Shown here one piece after another: positions 46,802-59,642 of a stretch of 64,000 nt of DNA. Numbering within the stretch: position 1 is the first letter of the stretch; every line of letters begins with the position of its first letter. The position numbers were made by a program, and so were the translations under genes. The notes under the pieces are model-generated. The model had not been told where the DNA came from. It saw nothing but the letters and a program-made list of their open reading frames with translations, and did no database searches. Source of the DNA: Mageeibacillus sp. (GTDB lineage Bacteria > Bacillota > Clostridia > Saccharofermentanales > Saccharofermentanaceae); NCBI GenBank assembly GCA_022484595.1, contig JAKVLB010000004.1, positions 1 through 64,000 of the forward strand. Direction: 5' to 3'.

Positions 46802-49800
46802 CTACTCTACGTCCTGCACTATCATATGTCCATTCATATCGAGTCTCGAGCTGCTGTGGATAAGGTTGAACTGCATTCTCTGAACGCCGCCCGGAACATT
46901 GAGTTCTGTGCGGACCTTGCCTTCGATATGGCTGCTCGTGATGTTTATTCTGACTCTCTCATCGAGCCCTCTGAAGATTGCGGCGGTCTTGCCTTCGCAG
47001 TTAATGTTGACCGATGCATAGTCAATGACTATGTCGGTCGGCTTCGCCTGGAACGATCCGAAGACAACTCCGGATCTGCAGTTGAGTGACACCGTAACAT
47101 TTGTATTGTAGATATTGATTGCCGTATTGTCAGAAGACCTCGTGCCAAGAATAACAACGTCATTGCCGGTAAACACCCCGACAAACGATGAACGCTCAAT
47201 CATAATTGTGGCATTGCCGGAAATTGATCCGATTCCCACAACAGAAAGAGCAGTGCTTTGAATCTCGATCGCGCATGAAGTTATTACAGGCTCTATCGTC
47301 CCTTCAAAGGAACCTATTCCGACACATTCCTGACCTGACAGCCTTATAAGATAGCTGCCCTTCTGAATGTTGATTGCGCCGCCGAGACCGCTTCCTATTG
47401 CTGTTCCCTTGGTCGTATTGAGTGCAATCTCTATAGCGCCGTCCTGATCAAATCTTAAGTCGCCGTGTCCGGATCCGGAATCGTTGCCTATGCCAAATCC
47501 ATCAAGGCTGTTTACATTAATCGCCAGGTTGCCGTCGCCTTCGATATAAAGACTGGAATCTTCCGGTACCAGAATGCCCCCGCCTTCGAGAAGGTTCTCG
47601 CCCTTGAGCACCAGAGTCACGTCACAGCCGTGCCCGATAATGATTGATGCCGGCTTTTTCTTTCCGATAAGCGAGCAGGTCTCAAGTGTAATCTGACCCC
47701 TATAGCCGTCCTCTATCTCAATACAGGCAAAAGGCTCAAGTCCAGGGGCGCCGACAATTGTGACATCGCGGTAGGTTACCTGTCCGTTTGCTATTTTTAT
47801 CAGACGGCTTCCGTTCTGGCGCAGAACCGAAAGCATGATCCTTATCTCACGTCCGGCAGTATATATGCTGTTGTTTCGCGTCTCTTCCTCCGCCTGATTG
47901 ATCTGTATTATCTGCTCTCTGACAGACGGTTCTACCGTCTTTACAATCTTCTCCATAGGTCTTGCCGTGTAGTAGCCCTGGATGAGATCGATCCCAAGGT
48001 GTATGACCATCCTGAGTTCTTCTTCTGTCTCTACACCTTCGGCCAGAGCCATGATATCGTTATCGTGCGAAAAAGATATGATGTCCCTGACAAAGTGCTG
48101 CTTCTGCGGCGAATTCTGAATCTCCGAGATAAGCGACCTGTCTATCTTGACGTAGTTCGGCATGTACCTCAGAAGATTTGAGACATTCGAATATCCCGTG
48201 CCGTAGTCGTCGACGGCGGTCTGGACCCCGAGGTCTCTATATGCCAGCTTCATATCATTCAGATCCGCATCGTCAAGTTCTGTCTGTTCGGTAAGCTCGA
48301 CAACTATACGGTTTGAGTATCTGACAGCCATGTCGGCAAGCCTCTTGGCATCTTCACCCTTGAGCCTCTGACCCGGGATACTGTTTATGAATATTCGAGA
48401 GTTATCCTTAAAATCATTCGGTCTGGTGTCGATAATGTTTAAGACATTATTGAAAGTCGCGCTCTCGACATCATACAGTCTGTCAAAAGTCTCGGCATAC
48501 TTGAGGACTACCGGCGGCTGTATATAAGGCGTAACATCAACTCTCATAAGCGCTTCATAGGCGAAAATCTCGCCGTTATGAGCATCAACAATCGGCTGGA
48601 AATGATACTTAATCTTGTTCTTGTTAAGAATGTCATTTACCATTCTGGCTTCATTCTGGGCATTCGCATCGAGCCCGCCGCCGCCGGCACTCTTGAAGCT
48701 CATCTTCTGGGCATTCTTCTTAGACAGAGCTATCCCGACAAGTCTTTCAAACTCATCACCGTCCCGGGGCGCGCCATCGGACAATCCGTAATAGATATCA
48801 ACTGCCGTGCGTCCGGAACCGGCATTATACTCGTCCAGAAGTTTATTAAGAGTACCAAGGCCGTCTTCAAACGGCTTCATTCCGTTTACACCGAGGCCGT
48901 CAATCACGACCATCTCACCGTTGCCGAAGCAGAAAACAGAGCCCTCCGGGAATATTTTCGACAATATTCTGCTCATCGAAACAATAATTCTGTCTCCGGT
49001 CTCGCGCCCGTATGAATCGTTTATTTTGGCAAGATCCCTGATATCTATTGCCATGACGCCGACAGCCGTCTTGCCGTTGCTGCTGCACTGAGCAAGAAGC
49101 TGGTTCATCATCTGGGTGAATCCTCTGTAATTGTACAGACCTGTAAGCGGGTCTCTTATCAGACTTGACTCGAGGCGGCTGTTGATGCCGCGGAATTCTT
49201 CCTGCTTTCTGAAATATTCCAGTCCGCGCATAAGGCTTCTGAGCCACATTCTGTAGCTCTCGCTGTATGACTGCGGCTCAGTATAGGATACAACCGAGTA
49301 TCCGAAGCTCTTGGCTTCGAAAAACAGCGGCGTGAACACAAACGCTTCCGGCTTATCACGATCCTCGTTGAGCCTCGGAACAAGCTGCGACCTGTCGAAA
49401 AATACGTCCATCCCCATACGGTCCGCCGCAAGTTTCTCGGGCCGGCAGCTCATGACATTGATCATACGTTTGCTGTAGAACCTGTCGGTATCCCGCATCA
49501 TCTCCATATTGAGCTGTTCAGCCGGAGCTCCGTCGGAACTTTCTGTCCCTCCGGCCTTCTGCCAGTTCTCATTAAGCAGAATATTGAAGCTCTCGAATTC
49601 CCTTATCTGATAAACGTAAGAAAACAGAGTTGTCATCAGCCCGTAGAAATTGTTCTGTATGAGCATATCCTCGTCCATATGATTGAAAATCGAATAGACA
49701 CTGTTGCTCGATATATCGGTATCCCATACCTTGCGCTGTTCCTTGACAAGCATATCGGACGTTCTGTCGCATCCGCACGACTTTCCGTCGAACAGCTTTA

Positions 49801-50626
49801 CCGGAGGATTGAACTTCTCCGGATCCATCCCGTACATCATGTTGAAGACAGTCTTCGCCGCGTACATTCCGAACTCGACAGACGGCAGGATAACGGACGT
49901 AATCGGCACCGGCGCCATACGCGCCTCCTCCATGGAATCATATCCGACAACCGCGATATCCTGAGGAATCCTCAGTCCGTGAGACGTGAGAGATTTCGCA
50001 AGACCCACTGCCATGCAGTCATTAGCGCAGGCTATTGCCTGAGGAAGCTTCCCGCTCTTAAATAATCTGTCGCCGTAATTCTCACCGCTCGTATACCAGA
50101 AATCGCCGTAACAGACGCGGTCTTTGCCTACTGAAAGTCCATGTTCCTGCATGGTGTCAAGAAACGCCTGAAGTCTCTCCTTTGAATACGGATGCCACGC
50201 CTTTCCCGTAAGATACGCTATGTCTTTATATCCGTGATCTTCTATGAGATGGGTAATTATCGCCCTGACACCTTCGTAGTGATTGGGCGTTATCGACGTG
50301 AAATATCTGCTCTTCTTGTCTACCGAGATGACCGGGCATACGCATCTTTCATGCACGATAGCCTCTATATTGTCCGCCAGACCCGGAGTCTGCATAGTGT
50401 CAAGCATAAGCACAACACCGTCAAAACTCTCATACGGAATGAGCGAGAACACAGATGTGTCGCCGATTTCCCTCGGCGCGCTGCTCTGATACTTCTGAAA
50501 CATTGCGAAAACGCAAACATCGCAGTCATCTTCAAAGGCCTGCTTCTCGAAGCCGGTAATAAACTCAGCCTGATAGTATTCATCAGCCTGACCGACAAGA
50601 AGCGCGATTTTTTTGCGTATACCCAT
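46802..50626 (-). CDS. LacI-type sensor / degenerate GGDEF / EAL / beta-helix multidomain protein
   Basis: 1274 residues, no membrane segment. Residues 1-290 are a LacI-family periplasmic-binding fold without the HTH (DGVVLMLDT, YKDIAYLTGK, CANDCMAVGLAKSL). Residues 300-485 are an unassigned linker. Residues 491-640 are a GGDEF domain with DPLTGLYNYRGF but GNGEM (569-573 region) in place of GGDEF, so it is probably not a cyclase. Residues 668-895 are an EAL domain with YEALMR, FINSI, ELTE, VDDYGTGYS, KIDRSL and AEGVE all present, so it is probably an active c-di-GMP phosphodiesterase. Residues 950-1274 are repeated beta-strand stretches rich in Gly/Ile/Ser (GIGNDSGSG, AIGSGLGG), like a right-handed beta-helix. 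A sugar-like ligand sensor controlling c-di-GMP breakdown is inferred. Confidence 0.85.
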   Translation of the reverse strand: MGIRKKIALLVGQADEYYQAEFITGFEKQAFEDDCDVCVFAMFQKYQSSAPREIGDTSVFSLIPYESFDGVVLMLDTMQTPGLADNIEAIVHERCVCPVISVDKKSRYFTSITPNHYEGVRAIITHLIEDHGYKDIAYLTGKAWHPYSKERLQAFLDTMQEHGLSVGKDRVCYGDFWYTSGENYGDRLFKSGKLPQAIACANDCMAVGLAKSLTSHGLRIPQDIAVVGYDSMEEARMAPVPITSVILPSVEFGMYAAKTVFNMMYGMDPEKFNPPVKLFDGKSCGCDRTSDMLVKEQRKVWDTDISSNSVYSIFNHMDEDMLIQNNFYGLMTTLFSYVYQIREFESFNILLNENWQKAGGTESSDGAPAEQLNMEMMRDTDRFYSKRMINVMSCRPEKLAADRMGMDVFFDRSQLVPRLNEDRDKPEAFVFTPLFFEAKSFGYSVVSYTEPQSYSESYRMWLRSLMRGLEYFRKQEEFRGINSRLESSLIRDPLTGLYNYRGFTQMMNQLLAQCSSNGKTAVGVMAIDIRDLAKINDSYGRETGDRIIVSMSRILSKIFPEGSVFCFGNGEMVVIDGLGVNGMKPFEDGLGTLNKLLDEYNAGSGRTAVDIYYGLSDGAPRDGDEFERLVGIALSKKNAQKMSFKSAGGGGLDANAQNEARMVNDILNKNKIKYHFQPIVDAHNGEIFAYEALMRVDVTPYIQPPVVLKYAETFDRLYDVESATFNNVLNIIDTRPNDFKDNSRIFINSIPGQRLKGEDAKRLADMAVRYSNRIVVELTEQTELDDADLNDMKLAYRDLGVQTAVDDYGTGYSNVSNLLRYMPNYVKIDRSLISEIQNSPQKQHFVRDIISFSHDNDIMALAEGVETEEELRMVIHLGIDLIQGYYTARPMEKIVKTVEPSVREQIIQINQAEEETRNNSIYTAGREIRIMLSVLRQNGSRLIKIANGQVTYRDVTIVGAPGLEPFACIEIEDGYRGQITLETCSLIGKKKPASIIIGHGCDVTLVLKGENLLEGGGILVPEDSSLYIEGDGNLAINVNSLDGFGIGNDSGSGHGDLRFDQDGAIEIALNTTKGTAIGSGLGGAINIQKGSYLIRLSGQECVGIGSFEGTIEPVITSCAIEIQSTALSVVGIGSISGNATIMIERSSFVGVFTGNDVVILGTRSSDNTAINIYNTNVTVSLNCRSGVVFGSFQAKPTDIVIDYASVNINCEGKTAAIFRGLDERVRINITSSHIEGKVRTELNVPGGVQRMQFNLIHSSSRLDMNGHMIVQDVE

Positions 50627-50787: not shown

Positions 50788-51744
50788 TTATACGGGCAGA
50801 ATGCGCTTAACCGGAGCATATCCCAGCGTTTTACGGAAATTCTCGTTGCACTCCATTGACGTCAGACAATCGGACGGATCGATCCTGTCGAAATTGATAT
50901 TCTCGAGCTGTTCCCTTTGTATTCTCACGGATACCAGCACAATCTCCTCGTCATTTCCCGTTGCTGTGTTAACAACAGAGTCAACGGCGTGGATCACGAC
51001 CGTCTTTACCGGAAGAAGAGCGAAGCTGTCCCTTGCGACGCGAAGTATCGTGCTTGACACATAGTCGCGGACCAGATCGTAATACTGGGTCTTAGGCATC
51101 TCTTTGACAATCAGTCCGCCATTGGAGCTGAGGCTGAGTTTGTTTTTCGGAACCGCCTCATCCGACCTGACCTTGAATTCCACTTCGAGGCATCCCGCGC
51201 CATCTGTCCCGATATCGAACTGTGAACCGTATTCCAGCAGGTCATCGAACGGTCCTGCCTCTTTTATCACTTTAAAATATGAATCAACGTCACCGTCGAG
51301 TATGCTCTGGGCAAACGGCGCCAGATTGCCGGTGCCGTCGGCTCTTACCTGTTCCCAGTCTATCTTTCCGTCAGACTGCCTGTGTATCGTTTTAAGCTCT
51401 TCCACCTTCTCTTCGTACTGTTTGACAGCGGCTGCCGCAGATGAAGCTGTATCACCGGAGGCTGTTCCGGAAAAAACCGATGCTGCCGCAGTGCACGATG
51501 TGCCTGATGCGGATCCGGAAGCATAACTACGGCTTCCGCCGTAACTTCCGGAATTCTTCAGATTGCCGGTCTTGGTATAATATATGCCTGTCCCGGGCAC
51601 TCCGACTGTGGTTCTTGTCCTGCCGTTCAGGCTGACCGACTTGCGCAGACCCCGTACGCCAAGAGAAAGGCTCGGCCCCGATTTGCTCAGATTAAGCCTG
51701 ACGCCTTTACATAAAGAGATTGATTTTCTGAAACAAAGACCCAT
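50788..51744 (-). CDS. DUF4236-containing protein
   Basis: 318 residues. The N-terminus carries the DUF4236 pattern (FRKSISLCKGVRLNLSKSG, then VGVPGTGIYYTKTG). A Ser/Ala/Gly-rich linker (about 68-105) and a helix follow, then a C-terminal alpha/beta region (about 160-318) that I cannot assign, with conserved-looking blocks VVIHAVDSVVNT and LVSVRIQREQLENI. The domain has no established function. It is 16 nt downstream of the sufB-like gene and so probably co-transcribed with it. Confidence 0.75.
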   Translation of the reverse strand: MGLCFRKSISLCKGVRLNLSKSGPSLSLGVRGLRKSVSLNGRTRTTVGVPGTGIYYTKTGNLKNSGSYGGSRSYASGSASGTSCTAAASVFSGTASGDTASSAAAAVKQYEEKVEELKTIHRQSDGKIDWEQVRADGTGNLAPFAQSILDGDVDSYFKVIKEAGPFDDLLEYGSQFDIGTDGAGCLEVEFKVRSDEAVPKNKLSLSSNGGLIVKEMPKTQYYDLVRDYVSSTILRVARDSFALLPVKTVVIHAVDSVVNTATGNDEEIVLVSVRIQREQLENINFDRIDPSDCLTSMECNENFRKTLGYAPVKRILPV

Positions 51745-51760
51745 GTGATTATCCCCTTTG

Positions 51761-52678
51761 TCATCTGAGGAAGCCTTCGATTATCTTGGCTTCCGCCTGT
51801 TCCTCCGTAAGTCCCAAAGTCATGAGTTTGGTAATCTGCTCTCCCGCGATTTTGCCTATTGCGGCCTCGTGAATCAAAGACGCGTCAACATTGCTCGCGG
51901 CAAGCTTAGGTGTCGCCACAATGACGCCGTGCTCCATGATAATGGAATCACAGGAAGCATGACCGCTGCATCTGCTGTTCCCGGCGATATCTATTACAAT
52001 ATCCTGCCTGGAACTGCCTTTGGCTACGCCTCTGCTTATGATATCGCACTTACTGCCGTCGCCGTCAAGCGAAACTACAATCTCGGCCTTCGCGGTCTGA
52101 TCCAGATTGGTCAGGATCTTATCATGCATGATAAGGCTCGCGCCGGGGCCTATAACCGCCCTTGTGATTCTGTATGTATCATTGATTCCGGCTATCTGCG
52201 ACGTATCCATCTCCATAACGGCTCCTTCGCCGAGATTAACCTCTGTGGTAGGGTTCATAAGTCTCTTTCCGGTTCCGGTTCCCTCGCCGTAATGCTTTTC
52301 GATGTATCTGACATGCGCATCCTTCTCAATATGGAAGGTGTGAATTCCGTCGTGGCGGCTGTCACGGCCTCCGCAGTTGCTTATTCCGCATCCTGCCACA
52401 ATCGTCACGTCACAGTCCTTCCCGACATAGAAATCGTTGTAAACGCACTCCTCAACGCCGGATTTGCTGATAATTACCGGAATATGGCATGACTCGTTCT
52501 TCGTGCCGTCCTTGATGATAATGTCTATTCCCGACTTGTCGGTCTTGCTCACAATCTCTATGTTCGCCGTAGAATTGCGCGCGGCGCTCTGACCGTTGCT
52601 TCTTATGTTAAATGCTCCGACAGGAAGGCTGTCAAGTTCCGCCACTTCCTTGAGCATTCTTTTCTCTATATCATCCAT
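51761..52678 (-). CDS. sufB: SufB/SufD-family Fe-S scaffold (SMS-type SmsB)
   Basis: 305 residues from the ATG at 52678, with AAAGGAG 9 nt upstream. It is shorter than classic SufB (about 460-495). The beta-helical SufBD core is recognisable, with NDFYVGKDCDVTIVAGCG and HTFHIEKDAHVRYIEKHYG early and MEHGVIVATPKLAASN, EAAIGKIAGEQI and LMTLGLTEEQAEAKII at the end, as in SufB/SufD. It overlaps sufC by 8 nt. With no SufS, SufU or SufD nearby, this fits the two-gene SUF-like minimal system for Fe-S cluster assembly. Confidence 0.88.
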   Translation of the reverse strand: MDDIEKRMLKEVAELDSLPVGAFNIRSNGQSAARNSTANIEIVSKTDKSGIDIIIKDGTKNESCHIPVIISKSGVEECVYNDFYVGKDCDVTIVAGCGISNCGGRDSRHDGIHTFHIEKDAHVRYIEKHYGEGTGTGKRLMNPTTEVNLGEGAVMEMDTSQIAGINDTYRITRAVIGPGASLIMHDKILTNLDQTAKAEIVVSLDGDGSKCDIISRGVAKGSSRQDIVIDIAGNSRCSGHASCDSIIMEHGVIVATPKLAASNVDASLIHEAAIGKIAGEQITKLMTLGLTEEQAEAKIIEGFLR

Positions 52679-53402
52679 TGCAGCTCTCTCCTTTCGCACC
52701 GTGCGCGCAGCTGCAGCTTCCGCCGTGGCGCAGCTCCAGTCCGGCCATAACCTTCTCGCCTTCCGCGTACTGTTCCACAACGCCGTCCTTGAGATATATA
52801 ATCTTGTCCGCTATCGCCAGAATCCTCTCCTGATGGCTTATTATGATAATGTTGCCGTTCGTGACGTTATGAAGGTTCATGAAAACATCTATCAGACTCT
52901 TGAAGCTCCACAGATCAATACCTGCTTCCGGCTCATCGAAAAGACTGAGCTTTCCGCCCCTCGCCGCCGCCATGGCGATCTCGATTCTCTTCATCTCTCC
53001 GCCCGAAAGCGTATCGTTGATCTCGCGGTCTATGTAATCTCTCGGACAAAGACCCACAGCTCTCAGATACGAGCAGTCCTTGTTGATGTTGACATCCTTT
53101 CCCGCTGCAATCGACAGAAGATCCCTGACCTTGAGGCCCTTGAATCTCACCGGCTGCTGGAACGCGAAGCTCATCCCGAGATTCGCCCTCTCGTTTACGG
53201 GCATGTCAGTGATATCCGTACCGTCGAAAATTATCCTTCCTGAAGTCGGCTTCGTTATTCCCATGATAATCTTAAGCAGCGTGGATTTACCGCTGCCGTT
53301 CGGGCCCGTTACAGCAACGAACTTGTCGCTTATCGTTATGTTTATATCCCGAAGGATATCCTTGCCGTCAGCACTGAAGCTGACATTCTGTAATTCCAGC
53401 AT
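52671..53402 (-). CDS. sufC: SufC-family ABC ATPase (SMS-type SmsC) with Cys-rich tail
   Basis: 243 residues. Walker A VTGPNGSGKSTLLKIIMG, Q-loop FAFQQP, signature NDTLSGGEMKRIEIA, Walker B LSLFDEPEAGID, and the H-loop IIISHQ. It drives conformational change in the SufB scaffold. The C-terminus adds a short tail with GGSCSCAHGAKGESC, four Cys and a His, not usual in SufC and possibly metal- or cluster-binding. GGAG lies 8 nt before the ATG. Confidence 0.92.
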   Translation of the reverse strand: MLELQNVSFSADGKDILRDINITISDKFVAVTGPNGSGKSTLLKIIMGITKPTSGRIIFDGTDITDMPVNERANLGMSFAFQQPVRFKGLKVRDLLSIAAGKDVNINKDCSYLRAVGLCPRDYIDREINDTLSGGEMKRIEIAMAAARGGKLSLFDEPEAGIDLWSFKSLIDVFMNLHNVTNGNIIIISHQERILAIADKIIYLKDGVVEQYAEGEKVMAGLELRHGGSCSCAHGAKGESCNG

Positions 53403-58508: not shown

Positions 58509-59642
58509 ATGAACTATGAAATTTACTACATAGAATCAACCGTCGTAAGCATCATTATTCTGCTTATGCTGCTTTTCAACGCCATGAGAAGCGCGGACAC
58601 CCAGATGCACAAGCGTTATCTCGCTTCATGCGTTTGCTTTGAATCACTCTATCTGATTATTGACGTCATATGGACGTTGACAGAGGACGGCCCAACCCGG
58701 CATATCATAGTATCCAACGTGCTGCTGTATATGATTATGAACATCATGGCATATGCCATGTTCCAGTATTCCCTGTCACTTCAGGGAAGAGTCTGCCTTC
58801 TGGTCAGCCGCATTCAGCTGTTCATGTACATACCGGCATTCATCAATCTTGTAATGATTTTTACCACTCCTTTTACACATCTTTTCTTCTATGTGGAGGA
58901 TGGGCGCGGTCTTGTAACAGGTCCTTTATATTACCTGATGATATCGCTCGCTATGGTCTATCTTGTGGCGGCCTGCCTTCTTTGGTTTCTGGCGGCATTT
59001 TTGGAAGACAACTATGCCGACAGAATGCTTAACGTTACGAGAGGTCTGGCATATCTGCCGACAATTGTGAGCGGCATACTTCAGTCGGCGTTCATCCATA
59101 TTCCTTTTGTATGCTTCGGAATTGTAATATCGATGCTCTTACTATATATGTCTTCAATGTCATCTTACATCTCGCTCGACCCGCTAACGCAGATAAATAA
59201 CCGCAATCAGTTCAGACGACACCTTGGAAACAAGCTCCGCGACAATGGTAATCTTGCCTTGATAATCATGGATATCGACCGGTTCAAGTCAATAAATGAC
59301 ACTTACGGGCATCTTGAAGGGGATGAGGCGCTTATCCGCGTCGCCAAAGCTCTCAAAATCATATGTTCTTCAAATCGCAGCAAATACTCCATATCGCGTT
59401 ACGGCGGAGATGAATTTGTCGTGCTCGTTTACGGCACATATGATGAGGCCGCAAAAACATGCGTACAGATACAAAAGACTCTGTCTGAGCTCGGCAGAGA
59501 GGCAAACGCCGAATATTCACTCACCCTAAGCTTCGGAATAGCCTGCAAAGGACCTGACACATCGACAATACCGTCAATCTTCGCCGCGGCAGACAAAAAA
59601 CTTTACGTTCAGAAGCAAATCAAGCACAATGCAAGAACATAA
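58509..59642 (+). CDS. Membrane diguanylate cyclase
   Basis: 377 residues. Residues 8-215 hold about seven hydrophobic helices, a membrane sensor of unknown ligand. The GGDEF domain (about 222-375) is intact: DPLTQINNRNQFRR, IMDIDRFKSINDTYGHLEGD and RYGGDEF (297-303). The inhibitory RxxD site five residues before GGDEF reads RSKY, so product feedback is probably absent. It makes c-di-GMP from GTP. A TATAAT lies 37 nt upstream. It complements the EAL protein encoded at 46802-50626. Confidence 0.92.
   Translation: MNYEIYYIESTVVSIIILLMLLFNAMRSADTQMHKRYLASCVCFESLYLIIDVIWTLTEDGPTRHIIVSNVLLYMIMNIMAYAMFQYSLSLQGRVCLLVSRIQLFMYIPAFINLVMIFTTPFTHLFFYVEDGRGLVTGPLYYLMISLAMVYLVAACLLWFLAAFLEDNYADRMLNVTRGLAYLPTIVSGILQSAFIHIPFVCFGIVISMLLLYMSSMSSYISLDPLTQINNRNQFRRHLGNKLRDNGNLALIIMDIDRFKSINDTYGHLEGDEALIRVAKALKIICSSNRSKYSISRYGGDEFVVLVYGTYDEAAKTCVQIQKTLSELGREANAEYSLTLSFGIACKGPDTSTIPSIFAAADKKLYVQKQIKHNART

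Follow-up and report, generated by a model that had tools for sequence, protein, structure and literature searches.

A putative cytosolic c-di-GMP phosphodiesterase of Mageeibacillus sp. with a LacI-type sensor in front of its EAL domain and a predicted beta-helix behind it

Background

Enzymes of cyclic di-GMP (c-di-GMP) signalling are usually sorted by the sensor that lies in front of them. We describe here a gene of Mageeibacillus sp. (contig JAKVLB010000004.1, assembly GCA_022484595.1), located within a stretch of 64,000 nucleotides hereafter called the window, whose product joins, from the N- to the C-terminus, a LacI-type ligand domain, a GAF-like module, a degenerate GGDEF domain, an EAL domain and a predicted parallel beta-helix. 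On balance, we favour its reading as a cytosolic, ligand-gated c-di-GMP phosphodiesterase in which the beta-helix would serve as an internal docking or assembly surface. The host is a gut bacterium.

The effector domains of the LacI/GalR family (PurR, CcpA, LacI) have, by sequence similarity, the same fold as the sensor of the window protein and several of the same pocket positions; the window protein differs from them in having no helix-turn-helix (HTH) domain, its sensor being joined to a GAF-like module, GGDEF and EAL instead of a DNA-binding domain. The Cthe_2159 family (PF14262, structure 4phb) and other parallel beta-helices share the fold predicted for the tail, with a faint sequence likeness in single members, whereas the window tail lies under the Pfam cut-off and is attached to a presumably cytosolic enzyme. 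We know of no LacI-type sensor or C-terminal beta-helix in the GGDEF-EAL phosphodiesterases with an inactive GGDEF domain, namely Shewanella PdeB, Caulobacter CC3396 and Pseudomonas aeruginosa RbdA and RmcA. These have in common with the window protein a cyclase-inactive GGDEF domain before a motif-complete EAL domain, with nucleotide-contact residues kept (PMC9061725, in the part available to us), whereas the family of the window protein includes a whole branch without GGDEF.

LacI-type sensors have been noted in c-di-GMP proteins before. According to the accessible part of PMC8846402, domains of the periplasmic-binding-protein (PBP) clan are prevalent in GGDEF, EAL and HD-GYP proteins; the LacI-type domain is listed there among putative sensors of unknown role and may bind solutes, sugars included, and SBP_bac_3 alone among the PBP-clan families has been studied in c-di-GMP networks. 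Receptors of autoinducer-2 (AI-2) with other domains appear in the excerpts of PMC12268683 and PMC9540692. Literature queries on LacI/PBP-GGDEF-EAL, EAL-beta-helix, rumen c-di-GMP, Cthe_2159, degenerate GGDEF and clostridial EAL, which covered mostly titles and abstract beginnings of openly licensed papers, returned no described EAL-beta-helix protein.

Results and discussion

Domain architecture

The gene and its modules are as follows.

46802..50626, minus strand: complete gene, 1274 amino acids (one open frame; relatives share the order)
49775..50614, minus strand: LacI-type PBP fold without HTH, residues 5-284 (Pfam PF00532 and PF13377, PDB sequence matches)
49163..49750, minus strand: GAF-like module, residues 293-488 (AlphaFold, Foldseek, VIA, weak Pfam GAF_2)
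48728..49156, minus strand: degenerate GGDEF domain, residues 491-633 (PF00990, 1.3e-15)
48911..48925, minus strand: GNGEM replacing GG(D/E)EF, residues 568-572 (sequence)
47957..48640, minus strand: EAL phosphodiesterase domain, residues 663-890 (PF00563, 1.6e-49, nine motif residues)
46805..47950, minus strand: C-terminal tail, residues 893-1274, predicted linker helix then parallel beta-helix (AlphaFold, VIA)
46970..47539, minus strand: glycine-marked rungs, residues 1030-1219 (conserved Gly columns in 91 aligned tails)

A sequence-only reading of this DNA had proposed a cytosolic protein of four modules. The open frame, the module order and the modules it named are confirmed, but it had missed the GAF-like module and the conservation of EAL and beta-helix as a unit. 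Its LacI-type fold without HTH, dead GGDEF domain and EAL domain with key residues all held up, and its cytosolic location fits, no stretch of 19 residues in the window protein exceeding the hydrophobicity limit used. The C-terminal beta-helix is likewise predicted by structure model and fold search, in a tail of about 380 residues and not the 320 or so first given. The cytosolic sugar-type sensor, which had been called unusual in combination with the beta-helix, is less so than thought: PBP-clan domains are prevalent in such proteins (PMC8846402, accessible part) and four further open frames of the genome carry both LacI-type and GGDEF matches. The module order is kept across the whole length in relatives of about 40-60% identity, which is more than chance would give.

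The EAL domain and the beta-helix tail

The EAL domain belongs to its family with 168.8 bits against PF00563 (cut-off 31.3). The nine tested residues of the EAL, N, E, DD, K, E and Q motifs, which bind metal and substrate (E691, R695, N748, E777, D806, D807, K827, E863 and Q883), are present in the window protein and in 105/105 relatives, and this invariance makes an active phosphodiesterase likely. The 105-member set was drawn from 164 frames with a strong EAL match (all 78 of loci L038-L116, the window protein, 20 further and 6 short complete frames); loci of the genus from the first relative search were dropped, as were duplicates and frames truncated where a locus ends. EAL is also the best conserved of the modules in the 24 five-module proteins, with a mean pairwise identity of 64%, followed by LacI (56), GAF-like (45), tail (40) and GGDEF (38).

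For residues 893-1274, AlphaFold gives an almost entirely beta model (predicted local distance difference test, pLDDT, 90.2; predicted template modelling score, pTM, 0.86), which starts with the linker helix and entry strands, followed by the rungs. Foldseek alone gave a best E of 0.066. Realignment of its candidates with VIA gave Z of at least 5 for 338 of 415 aligned chains, the best matches being parallel beta-helix proteins (7akv_G first, Z 24.9 over 316 residues), which we take to be right-handed. Compared with these solved structures, the predicted model has the parallel beta-helix fold. The rung glycines stand at 1047, 1078, 1105, 1133, 1161, 1190 and 1219, at a spacing of 27-31 residues. 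The periodicity of the single tail sequence is weak, its best identity autocorrelation (lag 27) being equalled by 42 of 1000 shuffles; the beta-helix is thus predicted from the model and from conservation in the family. Among the 91 tails, 47 columns are conserved at 75% or more, mostly Gly, Leu, Ile or Val as expected of a structural coil, with no charged set suggestive of an enzyme; the seven others are Y922, D954, N983, N1011, P1021, C1118 and S1134.

The sensory modules

Residues 5-263 match Pfam Peripla_BP_1 (3.7e-15, 56.6 bits, cut-off 22.2) and residues 126-284 match Peripla_BP_3 (8.2e-27, 94.8 bits, cut-off 26.5), which places the sensor among the LacI/GalR effector domains; in the PDB, its sequence matches are the effector domains of PurR, CcpA and LacI. 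No HTH family is listed by Pfam for the window protein at E up to 1 and the sensor match starts at residue 5, so that the N-terminal HTH of a LacI/GalR transcription factor is lacking. Pocket positions R151, W177, Y178 and N202 are kept in 68/68 near relatives, H145 and E16 in 67 and D230 in 58. In an alignment with the PurR sequence, R151 and D230 fall on what we take to be Arg196 and Asp275; the inducer residues of LacI are presumably Arg197, Asn246 and Asp274. In the six most distant LacI-type sensors this signature is mostly absent (W177 in four, N202 in three, R151 in one, Y178 and H145 in none). Fixed in the near set and mostly different in the far one, the pocket points to one ligand shared by the near relatives.

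The following module has a GAF fold in its AlphaFold model (residues 293-488; pLDDT 85.8, pTM 0.81). Its best Foldseek match is the GAF domain 3ci6_A (E 1.4e-3, probability 1.00; nothing at 1e-3 or below), and the VIA matches listed are mostly GAF-containing chains with Z 9.0-10.7, the highest being PDE6. By sequence, the Pfam cut-off is not reached, GAF_2 appearing below it in 7 of the 29 aligned rows (16.2 bits, cut-off 28.6), and a PDB search gave nothing at E up to 1. This alignment comprises the window module and 28 of 68 listed ones.

An active diguanylate cyclase carries GG(D/E)EF with an acidic third residue. The window protein has GNGEM; among the 44 GGDEF domains aligned, 27 carry Gly as the third motif residue and the other 17 carry Asp. 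Asp528, presumably the metal Asp, is kept in 40 of the 44, Asn536 in 41 and Asp545 in 31, and we assume that nucleotide contacts are among the roles of such residues. The retention of Asp528 and Asn536 with loss of the third residue is like that of regulatory GGDEF domains that bind GTP: in the part of PMC9061725 at hand, a cyclase-inactive GGDEF binds GTP and is needed for phosphodiesterase function, and CC3396, RbdA and RmcA are cited as alike. The relic may still bind GTP, as the sequence-only reading had suggested, which would fit its conserved residues. The domain is not essential, since a branch of 49 relatives lacks it. Distant LacI-type members hold near-canonical motifs (RYGVDEF in L166, RFGNDEF in L164, RVGGDEF in L174), which makes decay of the cyclase followed by its loss the simplest history.

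Distribution and variants of the family

Whole-length relatives are present in the genus; in 24 genomes of other families of the same taxonomic order none was found, only partial matches. Within the genus, the tail profile alone matched 68/85 genomes (the window's among them; one, G013, weakly), and beyond it 25/299 of one other family (six weakly and, where inspected, in other protein types), 40/197 of another (six weakly) and 5/398 in a sample of the phylum (the window's, two strong, two weak). An alignment of relatives holds the window protein and 18 of the 29 relative loci from the first relative search, L034 (in-frame stops) being excluded.

When named genomes were scanned with the window protein alone, 16 stretches fitted a pattern, none of which encodes a relative. 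The alignment-based scan gave loci in, among others, Saccharofermentans metagenome-assembled genomes, Ruminococcus flavefaciens FD-1, R. albus AR67 and Eubacterium ruminantium FB3002. Loci L038-L116 (79) come from the best 80 of 543 confirmed matches, and their ranking by likeness to the query biases the share that has a tail or a LacI domain. The 78 family frames comprise 27 with all five modules, a few of which have a shorter tail, 33 without GGDEF, 8 without the tail, 7 that consist of EAL and tail alone and 3 in which the LacI part is missing where the contig ends or the frame is broken. Of the 79 record titles, 22 mention a site in the ruminant gut or horse faeces (a manual count without background, taken as a lead only).

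Any match to the tail, by module profile, was found in 42 loci (within L117-L162), 36 of them at 80 bits or more including the window's own. All of these 36 have EAL in the same frame, L151 just its end; so does one of the six weak ones and not the other five. EAL and beta-helix are the constant core of the family. The part that precedes EAL varies: LacI-GAF, two N-terminal hydrophobic segments (L163, L168, L170, L178 and L181, EAL and tail both following the pair), other regions, or a short linker only (L103). No named sensor was found in the N-terminal regions of seven scanned non-LacI proteins, some of which have a weak or divergent GGDEF; some of these regions look PAS-like by eye.

On a tree of the EAL domain (105 rows and a distant outgroup of three; a quick method, with 47 of 105 inner branches open), the 49 relatives without GGDEF form one branch (Shimodaira-Hasegawa-like approximate likelihood ratio test, 96). 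The tree implies one change in GGDEF presence over 95 rows, two in tail presence over 105 and five in LacI over 102. GGDEF was scored with a profile from near relatives, which misses those of ten deep members, left out here; in six of these, Pfam found GGDEF above cut-off in L178 and L180, below it in L163 and L171 and not at all in L168 and L175, so further losses are possible. The beta-helix is absent in two branches (L055, L056, L057, L059, L063 and L068; L062 and L065), and L053, L058, L066 and L096 retain about its first third.

Genomic context

The phosphodiesterase gene is directly preceded by a DUF4236 gene (50788-51744), which adjoins a pair at 51761-53402 on the minus strand, a SufC-like ATPase gene and then a SufB/D-like one (PF01458), an order found in 9/79 loci. 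Synteny at genus level, in 9 loci, comprises the DUF4236 gene, the phosphodiesterase gene and a convergent exonuclease III-like gene; among the listed groups of clustered neighbours of the 79 loci, none is shared across families, and a conserved operon partner is not supported.

Another GGDEF or EAL gene lies within 300 bp in 11 of 78 relatives, which we count in favour of the function proposed below. A GGDEF-containing gene on the same strand abuts or overlaps the EAL-beta-helix gene at L109:3223-8537, L087:7575-10943, L101:7191-12722 and L074:1-4532; that of L109 has a LacI-type and a middle module before its GGDEF. In the window, about 8 kb from the phosphodiesterase gene, 58509-59642 (plus strand) encodes a protein of 377 amino acids with a canonical GGDEF motif and, by eye, a hydrophobic N-terminal half, likely an active diguanylate cyclase. 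The genome has 17 GGDEF and 7 EAL domains in total. No PilZ match was found in it (control positive in 5/14), nor a c-di-GMP-I riboswitch, for which the control genomes were likewise negative, so that this is no evidence of absence. Rfam gave nothing in the window at gathering score. A promoter scan over 4.2 kb, which was not used, found 12 sites where shuffled sequence gave 5.9; one of the 12 lies ahead of the gene on the minus strand (50733-50705).

Proposed function and alternatives

The protein probably senses a small intracellular molecule and then destroys c-di-GMP. We infer its enzymatic activity, the class of ligand, the direction of control and the function of the tail as follows. The LacI-type domain would close around a small soluble ligand, for which a sugar or a metabolite like it is most likely; the change would be relayed via the GAF-like module and, in the branch of the window protein, via the catalytically dead GGDEF, and would set the activity of EAL, which would cut c-di-GMP. 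The beta-helix fixed to EAL would be an intracellular surface for docking or self-assembly that positions the enzyme with a partner or in an oligomer; docking or assembly is our best guess for the tail.

A nucleobase or nucleoside as the ligand, in place of a sugar, seems to us rather unlikely. The best matches by sequence in the PDB include PurR (1jft, 2.5e-19, spanning residues 5-266), but overall similarity does not reveal the effector class in the LacI/GalR family, and what we take to be Arg190 and Thr192 of PurR align with His145 and Tyr147.

The beta-helix could instead bind carbohydrate inside the cell, a storage polysaccharide or an imported oligosaccharide, the enzyme then reading both a small sugar and a polymer; we consider this unlikely. 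Cthe_2159, titled polysaccharide lyase-like protein, has the lowest root-mean-square deviation and the highest identity among the 50 matches listed (Z 20.2, 2.6 A over 217 residues, 18% identity). A PF14262 match lies inside the tail of L171 (E 0.0028, 17.4 bits, under the cut-off of 25.8). Weak matches of the tail profile include proteins of surface or Cthe_2159 type, namely L144 (PF14262, 2.7e-21), L145 (S-layer domains and a below-cut-off PF14262) and also L150 (Beta_helix_3); further weak matches have no Pfam family at 0.01 (L143, L146, L120) or an Ig-like domain only (L141). These likenesses suggest a faint kinship of the tail with Cthe_2159-type proteins. However, nothing exceeds the Pfam cut-off in the window tail or among the 42 aligned tails (the window's and 41 of 64 listed), of which one, not the window's, matches PF14262 at E 0.036; NCBIfam gave single-member matches of unrelated families (best E 0.003) and no plausible family, and the best PDB match by sequence has E 0.73. 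The same list of structural matches includes adhesins, autotransporters and phage tailspikes, the seven conserved columns that are not Gly, Leu, Ile or Val form no evident binding row, and no gene family adjoins across bacterial families. Elsewhere in the genome, a frame of 627 amino acids (G000:C6:29835-31043) has two matches over the Cthe_2159 family cut-off and may represent the tail fold in a surface protein.

That EAL acts mainly as a c-di-GMP-sensing trigger, with the tail carrying the output to a partner, we find distinctly unlikely: EAL and tail are the constant core, and trigger phosphodiesterases are a described class (PMC5052742, in the part seen), but conserved catalytic residues alone do not favour sensing over turnover and no partner gene is conserved nearby.

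An extracellular glycan or surface target, also offered by the sequence-only reading, is not supported: EAL and tail are joined without an intervening membrane span, as far as seen in the window protein and in the members flagged for hydrophobic segments, which places the tail in the cytosol, and in the five pair-bearing relatives both follow the hydrophobic pair; on this topology a surface role is unlikely. c-di-GMP itself is intracellular and the window protein has no hydrophobic segment, so that an extracellular tail is highly improbable in spite of the S-layer homology domains of one weak tail-profile relative (L145) and of the segment near the frame start of L087, L096 and L176, which may be an anchor or untranslated.

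Several observations weigh against a cytosolic, ligand-gated phosphodiesterase docked by its beta-helix. No interaction surface was located in the tail, 40 of whose 47 conserved columns are Gly, Leu, Ile or Val. With 8 of 105 members lacking the tail and some keeping its first third only, it is dispensable in some members. Among the neighbour groups listed for the 79 loci, none is conserved across families that would name a partner. The adjacency count of 11/78 has no background control and includes L071 and L062 owing to an opposite-strand gene, and 60 of the 78 have more than 600 bases on both sides. Four other relatives have a single hydrophobic segment, which in L087, L096 and L176 lies close to where the stop-to-stop frame begins and in L059 inside the frame, and L170 has a third one at the tail end. 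Finally, the far sensors mostly lack the pocket signature, which argues against a single ligand for the whole family.

Conclusions

Taking the preferred reading of a ligand-gated, docked phosphodiesterase further, EAL and beta-helix might form an undescribed clostridial core for c-di-GMP breakdown, in which a surface beta-helix of glycan-binding type was taken into the cytosol and anchors the phosphodiesterase on a carbohydrate or scaffold inside the cell, local breakdown being tuned by a soluble sugar; we offer this as a speculation that is clearly improbable as a whole. The recurring extra part of these proteins sits behind the enzyme and recurs across several families of Clostridia. If the tail docks the enzyme, local control of c-di-GMP could be put to the test on these proteins. 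Since the near relatives share a fixed pocket in their LacI-type sensors, finding the ligand is practical, for a sensor class listed as of unknown role in the accessible part of PMC8846402.

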